From NCBI GenBank assembly GCA_030428905.1, contig JAUIED010000002.1:1-64000 (forward strand): a stretch of 64,000 bases of DNA. The letters run 5' to 3'. This document shows positions 47,231-63,953 of the stretch, piece by piece. The translations under genes and the position numbers were made by a program. Source of the DNA: Gammaproteobacteria bacterium (lineage in GTDB: Bacteria; Pseudomonadota; Gammaproteobacteria; Pseudomonadales; Azotimanducaceae). Under the pieces are notes generated by a model that ran no database searches, was not told where the DNA came from, and saw only the letters and a program-made list of their open reading frames with translations. Numbering within the stretch: position 1 is the stretch's first letter; the number at the start of each line of letters is the position of its first letter.

Positions 47231-48115
47231 CTAAAAAACCGGCAGCGGCAGTTGTGCGATCGCCGCTTCGCCGCCGACCTTGCCGATGTAATCTGCATGA
47301 CCCACACCCGCTATGTAGTCGGCGACGTAGGCGTCCCAGCCATCTTTGGCGGCGGCGTTGTATGCCTGCATGTGGGCGATGTCCATGCCGTAGTCCGGGC
47401 CGCAGGAGGTCGGGTGCGCTCCGCACCGCGCCTCGGCCACACCCTGCACCAGCGAGCGCTCGATGGGCATCTGCAGGGCGATCATCGGGTCGTTGAATGC
47501 CGCGGTGTCAACCACGCGCTCCGCGGTGAGATACGCCACATCAGCAGCACGGCAGATCCACTCGTCGAAGAACGGGTCCGGGCCGCTGATGCGCGAGTTG
47601 CCAAGCACATCCGCTTCGTTGACGTGGCACACCGCGAGGTCCAGCGGCAGCGCCGGCATGGCGACGAATTCTTCGCCGTCTGCATAAGGGGAGCGAACGG
47701 TTTTGATCTCCGGGTTGGTCGTGAGCACGTCAGACGCAAACCCGACCCGTGTGGGCAGGAACGGCAGCCGCGCAGCGGCTGCTTTCAGACCAAGCTGCAG
47801 CATACCCTCATCCACCTCCATCACGTCGATGGCGCCGCTCTGCCGCGCCTTGCGAAAGTGCGCTTCAAGCGGGATGGTGTCCATGGAAACAAAACCGAAC
47901 ACGAGCTTTTTCAGCTTGCCTGCAGAGGCCAGCATGCCCACGTCCGGGCCGCCGTAGGCAACCACGGTGAGGTCTCGCACATCGGTGTTCAACAGTGCGC
48001 GAATAAACGCCATTGGCTTGCGCCGCCCGCCCCAGCCGCCAATGCCGATGGTCATGCCACTTTGCACCTGGGCTGCGATGGCTTCCACGGTGATGGTCTT
48101 GTCGATACCGCTCAT
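47231..48115 (-). CDS. ipdA: ring D CoA hydrolase subunit IpdA
   Basis: 294 residues. GMTIGIGGWGGRRKPMAFIRAL, LTVVAYGGPDVGMLASAGKL and FVSMDTIPLEAHFRKARQSG are the classic IpdA blocks of the class I CoA-transferase alpha fold; EVDEGMLQLGLKAAAARLPF and AVCHVNEADVLGN follow. IpdA pairs with IpdB downstream. Its start is 3 bases after the hsaC stop. Confidence 0.94.
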   Translation of the reverse strand: MSGIDKTITVEAIAAQVQSGMTIGIGGWGGRRKPMAFIRALLNTDVRDLTVVAYGGPDVGMLASAGKLKKLVFGFVSMDTIPLEAHFRKARQSGAIDVMEVDEGMLQLGLKAAAARLPFLPTRVGFASDVLTTNPEIKTVRSPYADGEEFVAMPALPLDLAVCHVNEADVLGNSRISGPDPFFDEWICRAADVAYLTAERVVDTAAFNDPMIALQMPIERSLVQGVAEARCGAHPTSCGPDYGMDIAHMQAYNAAAKDGWDAYVADYIAGVGHADYIGKVGGEAAIAQLPLPVF

Positions 48116-48118
48116 CGT

Positions 48119-49003
48119 TTACTCCGGAAAGTTGTACTCATGGCCCCAGACATCACCCACCGTGCTCTTCGTTGGCTGGAAAGTAGACCAGTCCAGCTGC
48201 AAACCGTCGTATCCGACCTCCATGGGGATACCCGCCGGGCAGAGGAAGTAGAAGGACACCATGCGGTCGTTCTCGTGCCGGCCAATGCTGGCGGTGATGG
48301 GCAGACCCGCAGCAGTGACGCGGTCGAGGCAGGCGCCCACCTGATCGAGCGTGCGCATTTCCGTCATCAGATGTACGACCCCTGAAGGCGCCGGCCCGTT
48401 GAACAGCGCAAGGCTGTGATGGCGCGGATTGCCAGCATGATAGAAATGGATGCACATCTCGGGCACCCCTTCCGCCGGTGACGGTAACGTCAGCTCGTCG
48501 CTGATACCAAACCCGAGCACGTCCCGGTAGAACGCCGACGTCTCCGCGTGCGCAAGCGCCGGCAGCACCGCGTGGCCGAGGCCGAGCTCATCCGCGACGA
48601 AGGCGAGGCCGTCGATGCCGGAGCAGAAATCTCCTTCGGTATGGGTACGTCCGTGGAAGAGCTCAAAGTGATTACCCGATGGATCCTGCCCAGCGACGTA
48701 GGCCGTCACGGCACGCGCCGCACAACCCGCCGCGTCGCCCTGTTCCAGCGCAACGCCCGCCTCAACAAGCGCGCCGCACAACGGTTCGAACGCCGCCGCG
48801 TCGCATTCCCAACCGGCCGCCACGAAGCGGTCATCGCTACCGCGTTCGATGAGATAGCGAAATGGCGCGCTGTCCATTCGCAGGCGCACGCTGCCGTCTT
48901 CTGCCGTTGCGCCCGAGAACCCCAGGATATCCTCGCCAACCTGCCGCCAGGCTTGCGGATCACGCATCTCGATGCGCACGTAGCCGAGGGCCTTTACCGT
49001 CAC
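48119..49003 (-). CDS. hsaC: extradiol dioxygenase, HsaC-like
   Basis: 294 residues, GTG start. Two-domain type I extradiol dioxygenase; the C-terminal active domain has Fe ligands His144 (GLGHAVL), His211 (VVHLMTEM) and Glu262 (MEVGYDG), with the catalytic His196 in NPRHHSLAL. HsaC cleaves the catechol-like 3,4-DHSA (aromatised A ring) in meta fashion. The gene order hsaA-hsaD-hsaE-hsaC differs from the actinobacterial order. Confidence 0.92.
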   Translation of the reverse strand: MTVKALGYVRIEMRDPQAWRQVGEDILGFSGATAEDGSVRLRMDSAPFRYLIERGSDDRFVAAGWECDAAAFEPLCGALVEAGVALEQGDAAGCAARAVTAYVAGQDPSGNHFELFHGRTHTEGDFCSGIDGLAFVADELGLGHAVLPALAHAETSAFYRDVLGFGISDELTLPSPAEGVPEMCIHFYHAGNPRHHSLALFNGPAPSGVVHLMTEMRTLDQVGACLDRVTAAGLPITASIGRHENDRMVSFYFLCPAGIPMEVGYDGLQLDWSTFQPTKSTVGDVWGHEYNFPE

Positions 49004-49012
49004 TGCTCGCTC

Positions 49013-49789
49013 CTATTCGAAGCGGACCTCGGCGCTGCCGAGCCCCGCGATCTGCATGTGAAATACATCGCCCTTTACCGCGGGCGCCAGCGGCACCAGC
49101 GAACCGGACAGCACAATCTCGCCAGCCTCGAAAGGGATGCCGAACTCGCCGAGCGTGTTGACAAGCCAGGCAACGGCATTCTGCGGTGCGCCCTGCACGC
49201 TGGCGCCCAGACCCCGGGACAGCGGCTCGCCGTTCTTGGTGACTACCGCTTCCAACGCAGCCAGGTCCAGACCCGCCGGGGAGCGCTCGTCGCCGAGTAC
49301 GAACACGCCACAGGAAGCGTTGTCTGCCACCGTATCCTGAATCTTGATGCGCCAGTCCTGAATACGGGAGTCGACGATTTCGAAGCAGGCCATCACCGAC
49401 TCGGTAGCGGCCAGCACGTCCTGCGGCGTGACGCCAGGTCCGCGAAGGGGTTTCGCCATGCGAAAGGCGATCTCCGCTTCAGCTCGCGGCGCGATGAGGC
49501 TGTCTGTGGCGACCGAGCCGTCGCAGAGCATGGCGTCTGTGAGAAAACCAAAGTCCGGCTGGAACACGCCGAGCATCTCCTGAACCGCCGGGCTCGTGAC
49601 ACCGATCTTCTTGCCGATCAGCCGCTCGCCGTCGATGCTGCAACGCGCATCGAGAAAGGCTCGGGAGATGTGGTAAGCATCGTCCACAGTGATGTGCGGA
49701 TACTGTTCGGTGAGCGGCGCCATGGTGCTGCGCGCGCGCAGATGCGCGTGCAGTGTCCGGCCGATGGATGTGATTTCGTCCGGTGTCAT
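49013..49789 (-). CDS. hsaE: 2-hydroxypenta-2,4-dienoate hydratase, HsaE-like
   Basis: 258 residues of the FAH-fold hydratase/decarboxylase family. GKKIGVTSPAVQEMLGVFQPDFGFL, APRAEAEIAFRMAKPL (metal ligands) and ASCGVFVLGD are typical; GEIVLSGSLVPLAPAVKGDVF ends the chain. It would hydrate the 2-hydroxydienoate left after HsaD cleaves the meta-cleavage product. Its stop is 9 bases from hsaC and its start follows hsaD by 1 base. Confidence 0.9.
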   Translation of the reverse strand: MTPDEITSIGRTLHAHLRARSTMAPLTEQYPHITVDDAYHISRAFLDARCSIDGERLIGKKIGVTSPAVQEMLGVFQPDFGFLTDAMLCDGSVATDSLIAPRAEAEIAFRMAKPLRGPGVTPQDVLAATESVMACFEIVDSRIQDWRIKIQDTVADNASCGVFVLGDERSPAGLDLAALEAVVTKNGEPLSRGLGASVQGAPQNAVAWLVNTLGEFGIPFEAGEIVLSGSLVPLAPAVKGDVFHMQIAGLGSAEVRFE

Positions 49790-49790
49790 G

Positions 49791-50630
49791 TCAGTCGTGG
49801 CGCAGGAAGTCGAGACAGGCTGCGTTGAACATGCGGGTATGCTCCACCATCACCCAATGTCCGCAGTTCGCCACTTCGATGTTGCGGCTCGGCCGGCAGG
49901 CACGGGTGATCTTCGCACCACCCGACGCCGGCAGCAGCTCGTCGTCCACGCCCCAGAAAGAGAGCACCGGACAGGCGATCTGCGCAAGCTCGGCTTCCAT
50001 GTTGGGAATGATCATGCGCCCGAGCACCTCCGGCGGCTGGTTTTGCAGAATCGCCCACCGCTCGTCCACCAGCGCATCGGTAACATGCACGTCGTCATAC
50101 ACCAGGGTCTTCAGAACGTTGCGCAAGCCCTCGCGATCCAGAGCGCCGCCTACGAAATTGTCGATCATGCGCTTCATGGCCGGCATCGCCATGTAGGTAG
50201 CAAGCTCTTCGATGCCACCCGGCGCCATGAGGATGAGTTTGTCCAGCCGTTCCGGGTGGTCCAGCGTCAGGCGGATGCTCACCGCGCCGCCCAGGCTGTT
50301 GCCGATGAGGGTGAAGCGGTCGACACCGATACCGTCGAGCAGGCCCAGCAGGTGCTCGGAGAAGAAGGTAGTTGTGTAGTCCAGGTCTGTCGGCTTGTCG
50401 GAGTACCCGAAGCCCGGCAGGTCAGGCACGACGACCCGGTAGCCGGCGTCAACAAATGCGCCAACGTTCTTCTTGAAGTTGCTGTAGCCGCTCGCGCCCG
50501 GACCACTGCCGTGCACGAACACCACCGTGCCTGAGGCATCACCCTGCGGGCGGTGGTCGTTGTAGTGCAGCGACAGATTCTGCACCTGTTGAATAGCACC
50601 GCGCGGTGGTGCGCCGTTCTCCGTGGTCAT
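49791..50630 (-). CDS. hsaD: meta-cleavage product hydrolase, HsaD-like
   Basis: 279 residues from the ATG at 50630. An alpha/beta hydrolase with the oxyanion HGSGPGASGYSNF, nucleophile Ser112 in GNSLGGAVS, acid Asp229/230 in FWGVDDELLP and base His258 in NCGHWVMVEH. It hydrolyses the C-C bond in the meta-cleavage product of the steroid A ring (4,9-DSHA), yielding HIP and a dienoate. It is 19 bases downstream of hsaA. Confidence 0.93.
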   Translation of the reverse strand: MTTENGAPPRGAIQQVQNLSLHYNDHRPQGDASGTVVFVHGSGPGASGYSNFKKNVGAFVDAGYRVVVPDLPGFGYSDKPTDLDYTTTFFSEHLLGLLDGIGVDRFTLIGNSLGGAVSIRLTLDHPERLDKLILMAPGGIEELATYMAMPAMKRMIDNFVGGALDREGLRNVLKTLVYDDVHVTDALVDERWAILQNQPPEVLGRMIIPNMEAELAQIACPVLSFWGVDDELLPASGGAKITRACRPSRNIEVANCGHWVMVEHTRMFNAACLDFLRHD

Positions 50631-50649
50631 GCCTTCCCCCTCGGTGCCG

Positions 50650-51855
50650 TCACACGAACTCGTCGGTATTTTCTGCGCCCAGCACCATGCCGCCCCAGTT
50701 GCGGCCGAACGGTACCGGGTTGTTGGCCACATGCGCCCTGGCGATATGGATGTCGTGCCAGATGTTCTGCAGCGCCGCACCCTCGAACACCGTACGGCCG
50801 CCACCTACATGAAACAATCGATCCACGGCAGTAATCATGCGATCGATCACGGCGCCCGCCTGATAGCGGTAGCGCACGCGGTCGGCCATGGGAATCTCTT
50901 CGCCGGCACGCACCGCCGCCACCAGGCGGTCGAAGTTACGGTAAAGAATAGCCTCTACCTCATCCGCATCGTTGAGCGATTGCGCCACACGCTGAGTAAT
51001 GTCCGGATCGCCCTGCAGCTTGGTCGGGTCGGTGCTGCTGGTGGCAGCATTTTCAGCAAACACATTCACGGCGGCTCGCACCGCGCCAATGGCCGGAGTG
51101 GAGACGATGCGCGCAAAGATCTGCGCCCAGGGAATCCCGTAAACAGGGTTTTTCTGCCCATGCACGCAGTTGAAGCCGTCGAGCCGCTTGTGCGTGCGGT
51201 AGTCCGGCACGAATACCGGCTCGTCGATGACGATGTCGTTGGAGCCAGTGCCCTGCAGGCCCATGACGAACCAGGTGTCTTCAATACGGTAGTCGCTGCG
51301 CGGCACGAGAAAGGTGCGATAGCCCTCGCCCGGCACGATGCCGCCGAGCAGCGCCCAGGTGCAGTGGTGCGAGCCGGAACTCCAGCCCCACCGGCCGCTG
51401 AGCATCAGTCCGCCATTGGCCAGTGCGACTTTGCCGCCCACCGGATTGTAGGAGCTGGATACGCAGGTGTCGGGATCGTCCTGGTAGACATCGCGGAGCG
51501 CGTCTTCGTTCATGATGGCGAGCTGGTATGCGTGCACGGCGATGATGCCCGTGATCCAGGCAGTGCTCATATCGCGCTCGGCAATGGCGATGGCCGCCTC
51601 AAAAAACTCCTGCGGCGTGGCTTCCAGGCCACCCCACTGCGCCGGCAGAAAGGCCCGCATCATGCCGGTGGACTTGATGGCAGCAACCACTTCGTCCGTC
51701 ACCTGCCGATTGGCGCGGCCTTCACCGGCCTTTTCGGCAATCAGGCCCAGCACGGGTTGCACGGACTGCAGCAGGCTCGGCCTACCCAGGCTACCGTGAT
51801 CCACGCTCTGGGCCACGCCTTCTTGCGCACGCTGCGTGCTCAACGCTTCACTCAT
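50650..51855 (-). CDS. hsaA: flavin monooxygenase oxygenase component, HsaA-like
   Basis: 401 residues from the ATG at 51855. It has the acyl-CoA-dehydrogenase fold of group D flavin monooxygenases, with FLPAQWGGLEATPQEFFEAAIAIAERDMSTAWITGI, NPVGGKVALANGGLMLSGRWGWSSGSHHCTWALLG and TGSNDIVIDEPVFVPDYRTH in order. HsaA hydroxylates the aromatised A ring (3-HSA) using reduced flavin from a separate reductase (HsaB), which I do not find here. Being first in the 18-gene array it probably carries the promoter, with operator C upstream. Confidence 0.92.
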   Translation of the reverse strand: MSEALSTQRAQEGVAQSVDHGSLGRPSLLQSVQPVLGLIAEKAGEGRANRQVTDEVVAAIKSTGMMRAFLPAQWGGLEATPQEFFEAAIAIAERDMSTAWITGIIAVHAYQLAIMNEDALRDVYQDDPDTCVSSSYNPVGGKVALANGGLMLSGRWGWSSGSHHCTWALLGGIVPGEGYRTFLVPRSDYRIEDTWFVMGLQGTGSNDIVIDEPVFVPDYRTHKRLDGFNCVHGQKNPVYGIPWAQIFARIVSTPAIGAVRAAVNVFAENAATSSTDPTKLQGDPDITQRVAQSLNDADEVEAILYRNFDRLVAAVRAGEEIPMADRVRYRYQAGAVIDRMITAVDRLFHVGGGRTVFEGAALQNIWHDIHIARAHVANNPVPFGRNWGGMVLGAENTDEFV

Positions 51856-51917
51856 GCTGTTGCCTCCCGAATGACACTGCCGGGAAGTTTCCCACCGCGG
51901 CGGGGCAAAGTAAACCA

Positions 51918-51953
51918 TTTGCGTAATTTCAAGGGGTGTTTTTTGCGCATATG
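51918..51953. promoter_or_regulatory. operator C: upstream of hsaA and the divergent SDR
   Basis: TTTGCGTAATTTCA (51918-51931) and TTGCGCATATG (51943-51953). The first 11 bases from 51921 equal operator B and the last 11 equal operator D, and all three share exactly 24 bases between matching arm positions. A TTTACT element at 51914-51909 (minus) is in the same place relative to the operator as the kshA -10 box. Confidence 0.75.
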
Positions 51954-52039
51954 GATAAACGCAGGGCGCCCAAGTTGCTCTATCGGTAGTTTTTGCGCAC
52001 AATCCCCAGACGATTCGCAGAGACGGGGAGGCGCGTTCA

Positions 52040-55574: not shown

Positions 55575-57140
55575 ATGACCATTCATACCGACCTGCAACG
55601 CACCGTACCCACGGTGCTCGACGATGCCTGCCGCCACTGGCCGGACAAAGCCGCCGTGGTCGATGGCGACGTCACACTGACGTTCACAGCGCTGCGCGAT
55701 GCAGCCCGAAGCTGCGCTCGCGGGCTCCTGGCACAGGGCTACCCAGCCGGCACCCGCTTCGCCATATGGGGGCCAAACCGCTGGGAATGGATCGTCGCCG
55801 CACTGGCCGGGCAACTCGCCGGCATGGTGCTCGTACCCATCAACACACGTTACAAAGGCGTCGAAGCCGGCGATATCCTGCGACGCAGCGGCAGCCGGGC
55901 GCTGTTCGTGGTGTCGGAATTTCTGGGCGTGGACTACAGGGCCATGCTCGCAGACGCGTCTCTGCCGGACCTCGACCTCATCGTGCCGCTCGACTCCGCC
56001 GGACTGAAACAACTACACGAACGCGCCGCCGAGATCAGCGACAATGCGCTGGATGCGCGCATCGCTGACATTTCCGCCGATGCGCTGGCGGATATTCTCT
56101 ACACCTCCGGCACCACCGGCGCGCCGAAAGGCGTGATGACCACACACGGGCAGAATGTTGCCGTCTTCATGCAGTGGAGCGAAGCTGTTGGCCTCAACGC
56201 CGAGGATCGATATCTCATCGTCAATCCGTTCTTCCACACCTTCGGCTATAAGGCGGGTTGGTTCGCGTCGCTGCTACGGGGAGCAACGAGCTATCCAATG
56301 GCAGCATTCGACACCGATGAGGTGCTGGCACGTATCGCCCGTGACCGCATCTCCATGCTGCCGGGGGCGCCGACGATCTTCCAGTCACTGTTGAGCCACG
56401 ACCAGCTCGCCAGCTTCGACCTGTCCTCCCTGCGCTGCGCCGTAACAGGTGCTGCCACGGTGCCGGTACAGCTCGTCAAGGACATGAAGCACGTACTGGG
56501 CTTTCAGGAGGTGTATACGGCCTACGGACTCACCGAGTCGACTGGTGTCGTATCTCTCTGCCGCTCAGGAGACGACTTCGAAACCATCGCCAACACTTCC
56601 GGGCGCGCCATGGAGGGTGTGGAGATCCGCATCACCGACGCCGATGGCGCCGCCTTGCCACCCGGCGAGTCCGGGGAGATCCGCGTGCGCGGATTCAACG
56701 TCATGCGGGGCTACCTGGACAACGATGCCGCAACCGCCGAAACCATCACGCCGGATGGCTGGCTGAAAACCGGCGACATCGGCGTGATGGATGCGCGCGG
56801 CTACCTGAAGATCACCGACCGGGTGAAAGATATGTACATCTGCGGCGGATTCAATTGCTATCCGGCGGAGATCGAGCACCTCCTGCTCGAACACCCGGAT
56901 GTCGCAGACGTTGCAGTCACCGGCACTCCAGACGATCGCATGGGCGAAGTGGGTCACGCCTGGGTGGTGCCCCGCGCTGGTTGCGTTATCGACCCGGCAG
57001 AGATCATCGGCTGGTCACGGCAGCGCATGGCCAACTACAAGGCGCCGCGATTCGTCACCAGCATCCAGGAGCTGCCCCGCAACGCTTCGGGCAAGGTGCA
57101 GAAGTTTCTGCTCACCAAAAACAAGGAAAACAACACATGA
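55575..57140 (+). CDS. fadD3: HIP-CoA synthetase, FadD3-like
   Basis: 521 residues of the ANL family. The P-loop is TSGTTGAPKG (177-186), with INPFFHTFGYKAGWFASLL, LPGAPTIFQSLLSHDQLASF, AVTGAATVPVQLV, TAYGLTESTG and RVKDMYICGGFNCYPAEIEH downstream; the A10 Lys is in NASGKVQKFLL. These blocks (especially NPFFH-FGYKAG, LPGxPTIxQSLL and DMYICGGFNxYPAE) match FadD3, which activates 3aα-H-4α(3'-propanoate)-7aβ-methylhexahydro-1,5-indanedione (HIP) to HIP-CoA. It overlaps the ferredoxin gene by 4 bases. Confidence 0.92.
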   Translation: MTIHTDLQRTVPTVLDDACRHWPDKAAVVDGDVTLTFTALRDAARSCARGLLAQGYPAGTRFAIWGPNRWEWIVAALAGQLAGMVLVPINTRYKGVEAGDILRRSGSRALFVVSEFLGVDYRAMLADASLPDLDLIVPLDSAGLKQLHERAAEISDNALDARIADISADALADILYTSGTTGAPKGVMTTHGQNVAVFMQWSEAVGLNAEDRYLIVNPFFHTFGYKAGWFASLLRGATSYPMAAFDTDEVLARIARDRISMLPGAPTIFQSLLSHDQLASFDLSSLRCAVTGAATVPVQLVKDMKHVLGFQEVYTAYGLTESTGVVSLCRSGDDFETIANTSGRAMEGVEIRITDADGAALPPGESGEIRVRGFNVMRGYLDNDAATAETITPDGWLKTGDIGVMDARGYLKITDRVKDMYICGGFNCYPAEIEHLLLEHPDVADVAVTGTPDDRMGEVGHAWVVPRAGCVIDPAEIIGWSRQRMANYKAPRFVTSIQELPRNASGKVQKFLLTKNKENNT

Positions 57141-57510: not shown

Positions 57511-58959
57511 ATGAGCTGGCGCATTCGCATTCTCTACGGCCTGGGGCAGCTTCCGGAGGGCATCAAATCTGCCGCCTTCGGCTTTTTTCTGCTGTTCTAC
57601 TACAACCAGGTGCTGGGCCTGTCCGGCACGTTGGGCGGTATCGCCGTATTTCTGGCCCTGGTGGTAGACGCGGTCAGCGACCCACTGGTAGGCAGCCTGT
57701 CGGACTTCACCCGCAGCCGCTGGGGGCGCAGGCACCCGTACATGTATGCCTCCGCGATACCGTTCGCGGCGAGCTTTCTGCTGCTGTTCGCGCCGCCGTC
57801 AGACCTCGGCCAGACTGGTCTTTTCCTGTGGCTGCTGTGCTTCGCTACCCTGACCCGCACGGCGATGACTTTCTACCAGGTGCCCTACCTCGCCATGGGC
57901 GCCGAACTCACGCAGAACTATGACGAGCGCACCCTCATGGCGAGCCTGCGCAACGTCTTCCAGCTCCTGGGCATGTTCCTCGTGCTCATCGTCGGCAATC
58001 TACTGTTCTTCCACGCCACCGATGCGTTCGCCAACGGCCAGCTGAACCCTGCCGCTTATCTCCCCTTTGCGCTCGCCTGCACGCCGATACTGCTGCTCGG
58101 CGTGTGGCTGGCAGCGGCCGGCACCCACAGCGAGATCCGCCGTCTTCCGCCCGCCGCACAGCGCGTGCGTGGTGCCTGGCAGCAGGCGCTGGAAGACGTA
58201 CGCCAGGCTTTCGCCATCCCGTCGTTCGTCGCCATCGTCGGCGCTTCGGTGCTGTTCGGCGTGAATCAGGGCATGGTGTCTGCGCTGCACCTGTACACAG
58301 CCACTTACTTTTTTGAACTCACCTCCAACCAGATCACGCTGCTCTTCGCCGGCGCGATCAGCGGCATCGTCATAGGTTCCGCGTGCAGCCGGCCGCTTGC
58401 GACGCTCGTGCCGGAAAAGCGCACATTGTTCATTGCCGGCAGCATCTGGTATGCCCTGTGGACGAGCGCGGTGATCATCGCCCGGCTCACCGGCCTGCTT
58501 CCGGGCAACGACGTGGCCTGGGTCGCGCCGTTGTACATGGCCACGGGCTGCATCTCCGCGCTGGGCCTGGGCGCAGCGATACCGATGATCGGCAGCATGG
58601 TCGCCGACATCACCGACGAGCATGAACGCCGCCACGGCACCCGGCAGGAAGGGATCTACTATGCCGCTGCTTCTTTCGCCGGTAAGGCCGTGGGTGGCGC
58701 CGGCCCGGTGGTTGCGGGGTTCATCGTGGATCTGGCCGGCATCGCCGCTGGTAGCAACCCTGCGGAGGTGGACCCTGCGGCCATCGAACGGTTCGGTTGG
58801 GCACAGGGGCCGATGGTGCTCGTGTTGTCGGCGTTGAGTATCCTGTGCATCTGTTTCTACCGTATCTCGCGCGCGGAGCACGCGCGCATCGTCGGCGAGA
58901 TCGCCCAGCGGGGCGCGGCAAACACCAACCACCAGATCTCCGGGAGACATACCACATGA
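57511..58959 (+). CDS. GPH-family (MelB-like) MFS transporter
   Basis: 482 residues, 12 helices. LYGLGQLPEGIKSAAFGFFLLFYYNQVLGLS starts the glycoside-pentoside-hexuronide:cation symporter fold, with DAVSDPLVGSLSDFTRSRWGRRHPYM (the cation-site Asp and motif A). ADITDEHERRHGTRQEGIYYAAASFAGKAVGG follows. Relatives in steroid clusters probably carry bile acid or steroid conjugates; the substrate is inferred only. Its TGA overlaps the ATG of the peroxiredoxin gene. Confidence 0.9.
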   Translation: MSWRIRILYGLGQLPEGIKSAAFGFFLLFYYNQVLGLSGTLGGIAVFLALVVDAVSDPLVGSLSDFTRSRWGRRHPYMYASAIPFAASFLLLFAPPSDLGQTGLFLWLLCFATLTRTAMTFYQVPYLAMGAELTQNYDERTLMASLRNVFQLLGMFLVLIVGNLLFFHATDAFANGQLNPAAYLPFALACTPILLLGVWLAAAGTHSEIRRLPPAAQRVRGAWQQALEDVRQAFAIPSFVAIVGASVLFGVNQGMVSALHLYTATYFFELTSNQITLLFAGAISGIVIGSACSRPLATLVPEKRTLFIAGSIWYALWTSAVIIARLTGLLPGNDVAWVAPLYMATGCISALGLGAAIPMIGSMVADITDEHERRHGTRQEGIYYAAASFAGKAVGGAGPVVAGFIVDLAGIAAGSNPAEVDPAAIERFGWAQGPMVLVLSALSILCICFYRISRAEHARIVGEIAQRGAANTNHQISGRHTT

Positions 58960-59495
58960 AAAAAACGCTCAGCCTTTTCGCCGCCTGCCTGGTGTTCACC
59001 GGGCAAGCCGCCGCAGCGGACCTCGCGCCAGGCGACGCCGCCCCTCTGTGGACGCTGGCAGGATCCGACGGTCAGCAGCACAGCCTCGTAGACCTCCGCG
59101 GCAGGCACGTGGTGGTGGCCTTCTTCCCGAAAGCCTTCACAGGCGGCTGAACCCTGGAGTGCAAGTCGCTGCGTGACAGTGACCGGGAAATCAGAAACTT
59201 CAACGTGGCCTACTTCATGGCCAGCGTCGACAGCCTGGAAGACAACACCGCTTTCGCCGAGAAGAACGAAGCGACGTTTCCTATCCTTGCAGATCCGACG
59301 AAAGACACGGCGCGCGCATACGGTGTGCTGAGCGCCATGGGCTTCGCCAAGCGCTGGACGTTCTACATCGACCCGCAGGGGCAGATCCTCAAGATCGACA
59401 AAGACGTCAATCCGCGCAGCGCGGGGGAGAATCTGGTGGCTAACCTGCAGGCGCTGGGCGTGCCCCCGGCCGACGGCACCGGATCGCCGCCGTGA
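58956..59495 (+). CDS. peroxiredoxin with in-frame TGA at the peroxidatic cysteine (likely selenoprotein)
   Basis: 179 residues if the TGA at 59148-59150 is read as selenocysteine (U65). A signal peptide (MKKTLSLFAACLVFTGQAAAA) is followed by a thioredoxin fold, VVVAFFPKAFTGG-U-TLEC-KSLRD and, after the TGA, NVAYFMASVDSLEDNTAFAE, FPILADPTKDTARAYGVL and WTFYIDPQGQILKID. In peroxiredoxins this position is the catalytic Cys (PGCT-x-E-C); here it is TGA, with family residues intact on both sides and the frame preserved, which argues against decay. A SECIS-like hairpin follows. The alternative is a nonsense mutation or read error. Sec-containing peroxiredoxins are known. SelA, SelB and tRNA-Sec genes are not in the window. 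Confidence 0.85.
59165..59183 (+). promoter_or_regulatory. SECIS-like hairpin after the in-frame TGA
   Basis: GTCGCTG (59165-59171) pairs with CAGTGAC (59177-59183), seven base pairs with one G-U, around the loop CGTGA. The loop has G in its second position, 22 bases after the TGA, which satisfies the general bacterial SECIS pattern (upper stem, apical G, 16-37 nt from UGA). It lies inside the coding region, as bacterial SECIS elements do. Confidence 0.7.
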
Positions 59496-62438: not shown

Positions 62439-63158
62439 TTAGTTCACCCGCCGAACCTGGATGCGCGCCACCGGGTTGTCGAACCGGTGTTGCTCCGTGA
62501 GCACGGATGTCGGCAGTGCGTCCATCGCCGTCAGCACACCGGAATGCATGGCCACGCGATCGGCATCGTCATCCCGTGCGGCGTTGAAACCCTCACCGCC
62601 ATCCGCCGGTCCGGGAATGGAGCCAGGGGCCTCGTCATCCGCCTCGGTGCCGGCATCGTAGGCCGGGGTGGAAGCTTCCAGCATCTGGCCCGGCGCCAGC
62701 ACACCCACTTCCGGCAACCCGTTCAACGCTGTGAACGCATCGTTGGTGTTAACGAGCATGGTAGCTACCGACACCCGCAGATCCGCGCGCGCGTTGTCGC
62801 TGATGGTCACCGACACCTGTGCCTGAGCGCCGGGCGGAATCGGCGCGTCGAACGCAACGGCCTGGCTCACCGAATCGGCCGCCAGCGCTTCGTCCAGCAA
62901 CGGTTGGGCATCGCCACCCTCTGCCAGCACCTCGAGACCGGCACCCGCCGGTTGGCCGAGTGTGAATATGCGATAGTCACCGTCGTGCAGCATCACAACC
63001 GGGGGCGACAGCGGCTGCGCGTTGGTGAGGTTGGTGACGCTGATCTCATAGGTGGACATCGGCACGGTTTGCGGCGGTGGTGCAGAGGAACTGCCGCCAC
63101 CGCCTCCGCAAGCGGCCAGAACACAGCTCGTTGCCGCCAGACAAATCATTCTTTTCAC
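62439..63158 (-). CDS. spondin-domain lipoprotein
   Basis: 239 residues from the GTG at 63158 (RBS GAGGTGG). The lipobox is TSCVLAAC-G, so the mature lipoprotein is anchored at a Cys followed by GGGGGSSS. STYEISVTNLTNAQPLSPPVVMLHDG and AYDAGTEADDEAPGSIPGPA, with HRFDNPVARIQVRRVN at the end, match the bacterial spondin_N domain. Function in bacteria is unknown; a surface or adhesion role is possible. It precedes the response regulator by 6 bases. Confidence 0.85.
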   Translation of the reverse strand: MKRMICLAATSCVLAACGGGGGSSSAPPPQTVPMSTYEISVTNLTNAQPLSPPVVMLHDGDYRIFTLGQPAGAGLEVLAEGGDAQPLLDEALAADSVSQAVAFDAPIPPGAQAQVSVTISDNARADLRVSVATMLVNTNDAFTALNGLPEVGVLAPGQMLEASTPAYDAGTEADDEAPGSIPGPADGGEGFNAARDDDADRVAMHSGVLTAMDALPTSVLTEQHRFDNPVARIQVRRVN

Positions 63159-63168
63159 GGCAACCACC

Positions 63169-63876
63169 TCAGTTCACCGTGACGGTGATACGGGCCACCG
63201 GATTGAGCCAGCGATGTACCCGTGCGTCCAGGTCGCTCACGCCGCCAGTCGCATCGGTATCGCCGAGCGCGCCGCGATGGATGTGCACGGTGGTGTTGCT
63301 GTCTGAGGGTGCAGCTCCAGAGGCACCGCTGCCGGAACCACCGGGCGCCGCCGGTATACCTGCCACACCGGGCGCGCCGCCGCCGTTGACGACTTCGTCG
63401 TTGGCTTCAGTACCGGCGTCGTAGGCGGACACATTCCACACGTAGGTGCCCGCGGCTGTAGGAATCTCTACCGCGTTCAAACCAATGAAACCGTCGTTGG
63501 TGGGCAACATCATGGCGACGACAGACAGGCGCACGTTATCCGTGCCGTCGGTGTTGAGCGCCGCAGTGGTGTTCTGCGCCGGCGCGAGCAGGCCGCCTGC
63601 GGGGTTTTCTACTACGGTTGCGCTGATCGCCGCCAGATCGCCGGCGAGCCCAGAGATGTCGCCGCCTTCCGCCATCGCCTGCAGGCTCGGGCTTGCTGCT
63701 TCACCGGCAGCGAACAGGCGGCTGCCTTCGCTGTGTGCGGCGACGAGCAGCGGCGTGAAGTAGATACCGTTGGTGAGGTTATCGACGCGGACCGAGAAGT
63801 CCACGGCGTGAACGGGCGCGCACAGCGCCGCGGCTGAGAGGCACAGTGCCGCTCTGACAGGATTCCATCGTGACAT
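63169..63876 (-). CDS. secreted spondin-domain protein
   Basis: 235 residues from the ATG at 63876 (GGAG about 10 bases upstream). The signal peptide is MSRWNPVRAALCLSAAALCAPVHA. The domain has DFSVRVDNLTNGIYFTPLLVAAHSEGSRLF, VSAYDAGTEANDEVVNGGGAPGV and the C-terminal RWLNPVARITVTVN, clearly homologous to the lipoprotein gene next to it, which it precedes by 10 bases. The two are probably an ancient tandem duplication, one free and one lipid-anchored. Confidence 0.85.
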   Translation of the reverse strand: MSRWNPVRAALCLSAAALCAPVHAVDFSVRVDNLTNGIYFTPLLVAAHSEGSRLFAAGEAASPSLQAMAEGGDISGLAGDLAAISATVVENPAGGLLAPAQNTTAALNTDGTDNVRLSVVAMMLPTNDGFIGLNAVEIPTAAGTYVWNVSAYDAGTEANDEVVNGGGAPGVAGIPAAPGGSGSGASGAAPSDSNTTVHIHRGALGDTDATGGVSDLDARVHRWLNPVARITVTVN

Positions 63877-63953
63877 GGGTGTTGGCTCCAATAGGCAATT
63901 GAGGAGCCGCCATGCTCAGGTGGGTTCGTCACGAAAGTATCACGCGAAAATCA

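Follow-up and report, generated by a model that had tools for sequence, protein, structure and literature searches.

An apparently broken peroxiredoxin gene predicted to encode an exported selenoprotein in a gammaproteobacterial genome

Background

The BCP/PrxQ peroxiredoxins are cytoplasmic Cys enzymes, and a peroxiredoxin of the Caulobacter cell envelope, also a Cys enzyme, is reportedly reduced by ScsB. Peroxiredoxins in which selenocysteine (Sec) lies in a TxxU motif have previously been catalogued in marine metagenomes, where they are abundant, with 43 genes given in the searchable text of the Sargasso Sea survey (PMC1088965) and 253 in that of the GOS survey (PMC2398784); a Sec-containing peroxiredoxin (Prx) is also listed in the searchable text of PMC13188914. 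The bacterial SECIS element (bSECIS) has been modelled as a hairpin with a loop of 3-9 nt, a stem of 4-16 bp and a G within the first two loop positions, lying 16-37 nt from the UGA (PMC13188914).

Here we describe a peroxiredoxin gene in the window, by which we mean the whole stretch of 64,000 nucleotides that was analysed (Table 1). This apparently broken gene almost certainly encodes an intact, exported, peroxide-destroying enzyme with Sec at its active site.

Table 1. Features of the peroxiredoxin locus, with positions in the window
Feature	Position	Strand	Detail
Peroxiredoxin gene (AhpC/TSA, PrxQ/BCP-AhpE-like)	58956..59495	+	179 aa, Sec at residue 65
Predicted Sec-type signal peptide MKKTLSLFAACLVFTGQAAAA	58956..59018	+	Read from sequence; hydrophobic N-terminal leader retained in homologues
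Sec65, in-frame TGA	59148..59150	+	Peroxidatic residue of the TxxU motif (T62-G-G-U65)
Cys69 codon	59160..59162	+	Probable resolving residue (U+4)
Predicted bacterial SECIS hairpin GUCGCUG-CGUGA-CAGUGAC	59165..59183	+	Stem 59165-59171/59177-59183, loop CGUGA 59172-59176
GPH-family symporter	57511..58959	+	Directly upstream of the peroxiredoxin gene; TIGR00792 E 5e-45, under curated cut-off
ATGA overlap, transporter stop and peroxiredoxin start	58956..58959	+	Probable translational coupling
FadD3-family acyl-CoA ligase	55575..57140	+	Upstream in same gene run; NF005801 703.8 bits against cut-off of 657
CoA-transferase, HsaC-, hydratase-, HsaD- and HsaA-like genes	47231..51960	-	Steroid/aromatic ring degradation neighbourhood

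The gene and its predicted product

A mechanical list of open reading frames cuts the gene at the internal TGA into 58797-59150 and 59205-59495, the second of which starts with GTG. The TGA is nevertheless in the same frame as the ATG at 58956 and the terminal TGA at 59493-59495, and when it is read as Sec, in the context FPKAFTGG-U-TLEC, a full-length Pfam match is obtained, with the 179-aa readthrough product matching AhpC-TSA over residues 25-145 (E 5.6e-30). In the PDB sequence matches, which are peroxiredoxins of solved structure, the peroxidatic Cys occupies the position of residue 65, and selection is purifying on both sides of the TGA. The original prediction had placed the TGA exactly at the peroxidatic position, with family residues kept in frame on either flank of a gene that automatic annotation would split, and each of these points was borne out.

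An AlphaFold model of the Sec-read product, built with 30 homologues, has a mean pLDDT of 92.7 and a pTM of 0.85, and the solved structures closest to it in fold are those of Bcp1/Bcp4, PrxQ and AhpE. The peroxiredoxin active-site residues P58, T62, U/C65 and R133 are invariant in the homologues, giving both the PxxxTxxC/U motif and the conserved Arg. There is a Cys at +4 and a Lys at +5 from the catalytic residue in every sequence compared (104/104 with TGA and 51/51 with Cys, 155 in all), and most members have exactly two redox residues after the signal peptide, U/C65 and C69, which in the model both lie on the helix formed by residues 63-74. One Sec homologue (L078, genome G034) has a lipobox-like LLSGC leader, which suggests a membrane-anchored lipoprotein version.

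It could be argued that the product, although it contains Sec, serves mainly in thiol-disulfide or metal-handling redox reactions and is not primarily a peroxidase. The roles of many Sec thioredoxin-fold proteins are unknown (PMC13188914) and the U-x3-C spacing is unlike that of a PDB relative, 2ywn, which lend this some weight; however, with the four active-site residues invariant and the closest folds being peroxidases, we consider it unlikely and favour a peroxidase.

A frozen hairpin downstream of the TGA

The hairpin that follows the TGA has 7 bp, including one G-U, and a 5-nt loop with G at its second position followed by U; it begins 14 nt after the TGA, with a gap of 21 nt between TGA and loop. 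With this loop and stem, 5 bp of which are conserved, it conforms to the bSECIS model of PMC13188914. Taken singly, the hairpin has an unremarkable folding energy (48-nt z = -1.12) and comparative conservation was therefore used instead; it is from conservation that the significance of the hairpin comes. A scan of the whole window against Rfam gave no matches, as would be expected given that Rfam has no model for the hairpin.

Codons 72-74 (CTG CGT GAC, encoding Leu72-Arg73-Asp74) are 100% invariant in 35 TGA genes, whereas at other conserved codons of the same genes the commonest synonym accounts for only 27-80%. The inner 5-bp core is canonically paired in 72 of 74 distinct TGA windows against 0 of 46 Cys windows; a null of resampled synonymous codons gave a mean of 7.2 paired out of 74 and a maximum of 16 in 1000 trials. 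The hairpin energy in the TGA forms is likewise -7.31 compared with -2.62 in the null (sd 0.25), and Cys forms with the same amino acids use varied codons over the region. In 67 TGA windows the closing pair is G-C; in 7 it is C-G, which is a compensatory exchange. At the fourth position counted from the loop the pair is G-U, G-C or A-U. Judged by this pattern of sequence conservation the hairpin is a real bacterial SECIS, which is what had been proposed for it at the outset. The C-G closing pair (CTC CGT GCG or CTC CGT GAG) occurs in L168, L175, L183, L193, L195, L200 and L204, mostly from Acidobacteria-labelled MAGs.

Selenocysteine machinery

The genome from which the window derives is a MAG in 357 contigs that is 99.6% complete with 3.8% contamination. 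On one of its contigs (C7) selA (482 bits, E 1.2e-144), selB and a tRNA-Sec with anticodon TCA (Rfam score of 72.7 bits, above cut-off) follow one another in a single run, selB being the ORF that lies between the other two and was identified by its match to SelB ORFs of other genomes; selD is found on the same contig (268 bits, above cut-off). The original prediction had named an absence of selAB or selC as one result that would count against it, and selA, selB, tRNA-Sec(UCA) and selD are all found; together with the comparison of Cys and Sec homologues described below, all the available computational tests support a selenoprotein.

Two further features of contig C7 were observed. The selD sequence (L003:5907-7970, minus strand) is the C-terminal part of an open frame of 687-726 aa with an NADH-dehydrogenase-like N-terminus, probably an Ndh-SelD fusion and consistent with those described in PMC2398784. 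A ResA-like protein with the motif WSSW-TGA-GC (L002:18726-19967, minus strand), which has one TGA and scores 221.9 bits with NF041054 against a cut-off of 300, is a probable second selenoprotein of this genome.

Every one of the 27 TGA genomes with a completeness of 90% or more carries selA, in one case as fragments, as do the seven TGA MAGs whose closing pair is C-G. Four TGA genomes, each at most 85% complete, have no convincing selA, and it is also absent from one named TGA MAG of 2.2 Mb. The presence of selA was considered as a means to tell Sec from Cys forms and discarded, selA being almost universal in the family.

That the TGA is read as some other amino acid, either through a general reassignment of the stop codon or through unspecific readthrough, is consistent with the frame staying open beyond it. 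Such a reading is very improbable, however, as the neighbouring genes and the peroxiredoxin gene itself terminate with TGA, the recoded codon is always at the position of the peroxidatic Cys, and a complete sel machinery is present along with a hairpin that conforms to the bSECIS model.

Homologues and exchange of Sec and Cys

Of the 147 taxonomically closest genomes, 35 carry a full-length homologue that has TGA at the codon for residue 65, and all 35 belong to the window's own family; the remaining full-length homologues have TGC or TGT there. The best 80 matches in a collection of named genomes comprise 68 with TGA and 12 with TGC or TGT at the catalytic codon and come from marine Gammaproteobacteria (K189A, OM182, Pseudohongiella and others), from Acidobacteria-labelled MAGs and, in one case, from an Acidimicrobiia-labelled one. 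Pairs of TGA and Cys forms at one catalytic codon are found across dozens of genomes; an alignment with both kinds of homologue had been proposed at the outset. A tree that omits the catalytic column gives six changes between Sec and Cys, their direction not being readable from the tree. Genome G057 has two copies of the TGA form (L084 and L106), and viral contigs searched for relatives of the peroxiredoxin yielded none.

These comparisons bear on whether the TGA arose simply by nonsense mutation, or as a base error, in what is otherwise an ordinary Cys peroxiredoxin; the contig number and contamination of the MAG might be cited for this. The same TGA is present in a sister MAG (G003, 96% identity) and, with the SECIS, recurs in dozens of other, independent assemblies, a frozen hairpin is confined to TGA forms, and the gene is under purifying selection downstream of the TGA (dN 0.013, dS 0.15, dN/dS about 0.09 between the window gene, from genome G000, and that of G003), and so a pseudogene or error is refuted and its probability is negligible. 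Equally negligible is the idea that a truncated product of 64 aa and the GTG-started downstream ORF, which does exist, are separate functional proteins, given that neither half contains the complete peroxiredoxin fold and that in the Cys homologues one uninterrupted protein carries the same active site.

Genomic neighbourhood

Besides the acyl-CoA ligase and the transporter there is a small ferredoxin gene upstream of the peroxiredoxin gene on the same strand. The models for HsaA, HsaC and HsaD give strong matches in the ring degradation genes that are below their equivalog cut-offs, and the neighbourhood can fairly be called a "steroid operon"; this is not a general setting for the peroxiredoxin family, with the arrangement of ligase, transporter and peroxiredoxin in a steroid-type region confirmed only in the window and in G003. 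The original prediction regarded a Sec peroxiredoxin in this setting as unexpected, a view that holds only in part, given the earlier marine catalogues of Sec peroxiredoxins. Nothing relevant came up when the literature was searched for steroid degradation in combination with a selenoprotein.

Elsewhere the gene follows selA-selB directly and on the same strand in 7 genomes of the relatives set, and SelB lies upstream of it in 9 loci of a wider set. No dedicated reductase was evident among the conserved neighbours that were examined; it is the linkage to selAB, seen in some genomes, that is informative. At 62439-63891 of the window, on the minus strand, two secreted paralogues lie side by side next to a two-component system, and their N-terminal domains are similar (VRVDNLTNG... 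and ISVTNLTNA...).

Proposed mechanism and significance

The recoding signature, the machinery, the catalytic position, the exchange of Sec and Cys and the invariant Cys69 are established by computation, and it is from these that we infer how the protein may work. SelB with Sec-tRNA(UCA) would be recruited by the hairpin so that the UGA is read as Sec, and the product would then be exported by way of its signal peptide. In the periplasm Sec65 would attack H2O2 or organic hydroperoxides, these being the presumed substrates, and the selenenic acid formed would be resolved to a selenenylsulfide by Cys69, which is the one redox residue of the mature protein besides Sec65. This could in turn be reduced by a thioredoxin-like partner linked to DsbD, of which the genome has one homologue. 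We place very high confidence in the reading as a whole, that of an exported Sec peroxiredoxin with SECIS-driven recoding and, as proposed last steps, resolution by Cys69 and DsbD-linked reduction.

A broader interpretation can be put forward only tentatively. The exported U-x3-C Sec peroxiredoxins with a sequence-frozen SECIS may form a distinct clade common to marine Gammaproteobacteria and Acidobacteria-labelled MAGs, may in these aerobes be a main client of the Sec machinery, as the selA-selB-prx clusters would suggest, and in the window's genus may have been recruited into a run of genes for sterol or steroid use to remove peroxides formed outside the cytoplasm.

The annotation of a gene that would otherwise be called broken or divided in two is corrected here. 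The homologues also form an extensive natural series in which Sec and Cys are exchanged at a single catalytic codon and, as the SECIS is present in the Sec form and absent from the Cys form, gain and loss of Sec become testable. The findings further suggest that aerobic marine bacteria use selenium to defend their envelope against peroxides.

Comparison with known systems

The window protein was compared with two curated models. Membership of PrxU (NF040737), a named peroxiredoxin model from the selenoprotein literature, was rejected at 38.5 bits against a curated cut-off of 270. The thiol peroxidase Prx-SUH (NF045827) is a Sec peroxiredoxin-fold protein; the window protein scores 21.5 bits with it against 298 and has TxxU where the published Prx-SUH motif is CxxU.

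Members of BCP/PrxQ (Sulfolobus Bcp1, PDB 3drn; Xylella PrxQ, 3ixr) are the best PDB matches in both sequence and fold. A Cys at Cp+5 is present in the relative 2ywn, whereas the family described here has Cys at +4 and Lys at +5, and the adjacent resolving Cys of PrxQ/BCP at Cp+5 is lacking in 155/155 sequences. The proposed reduction of peroxides in the periplasm, fed by a DsbD-like transporter, would by analogy resemble the ScsB-reduced peroxiredoxin of Caulobacter.

The closest likeness is to the Sec-Prx of the Sargasso Sea and GOS surveys (PF00578/COG1225), with which the window gene shares the Pfam family, Sec at the peroxidatic position, the PxxxTxxU motif and an occurrence in marine bacteria; T62-G-G-U65 in a PF00578 protein matches the definition of the Sec-Prx TxxU family by both family and motif. 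The searchable text of the Sec-Prx literature contains no description that we could find of the U-x3-C pair, a signal peptide or export, a frozen SECIS sequence or selAB-prx synteny. The window gene is a well-supported further member of the known Sec peroxiredoxins and not a new family.
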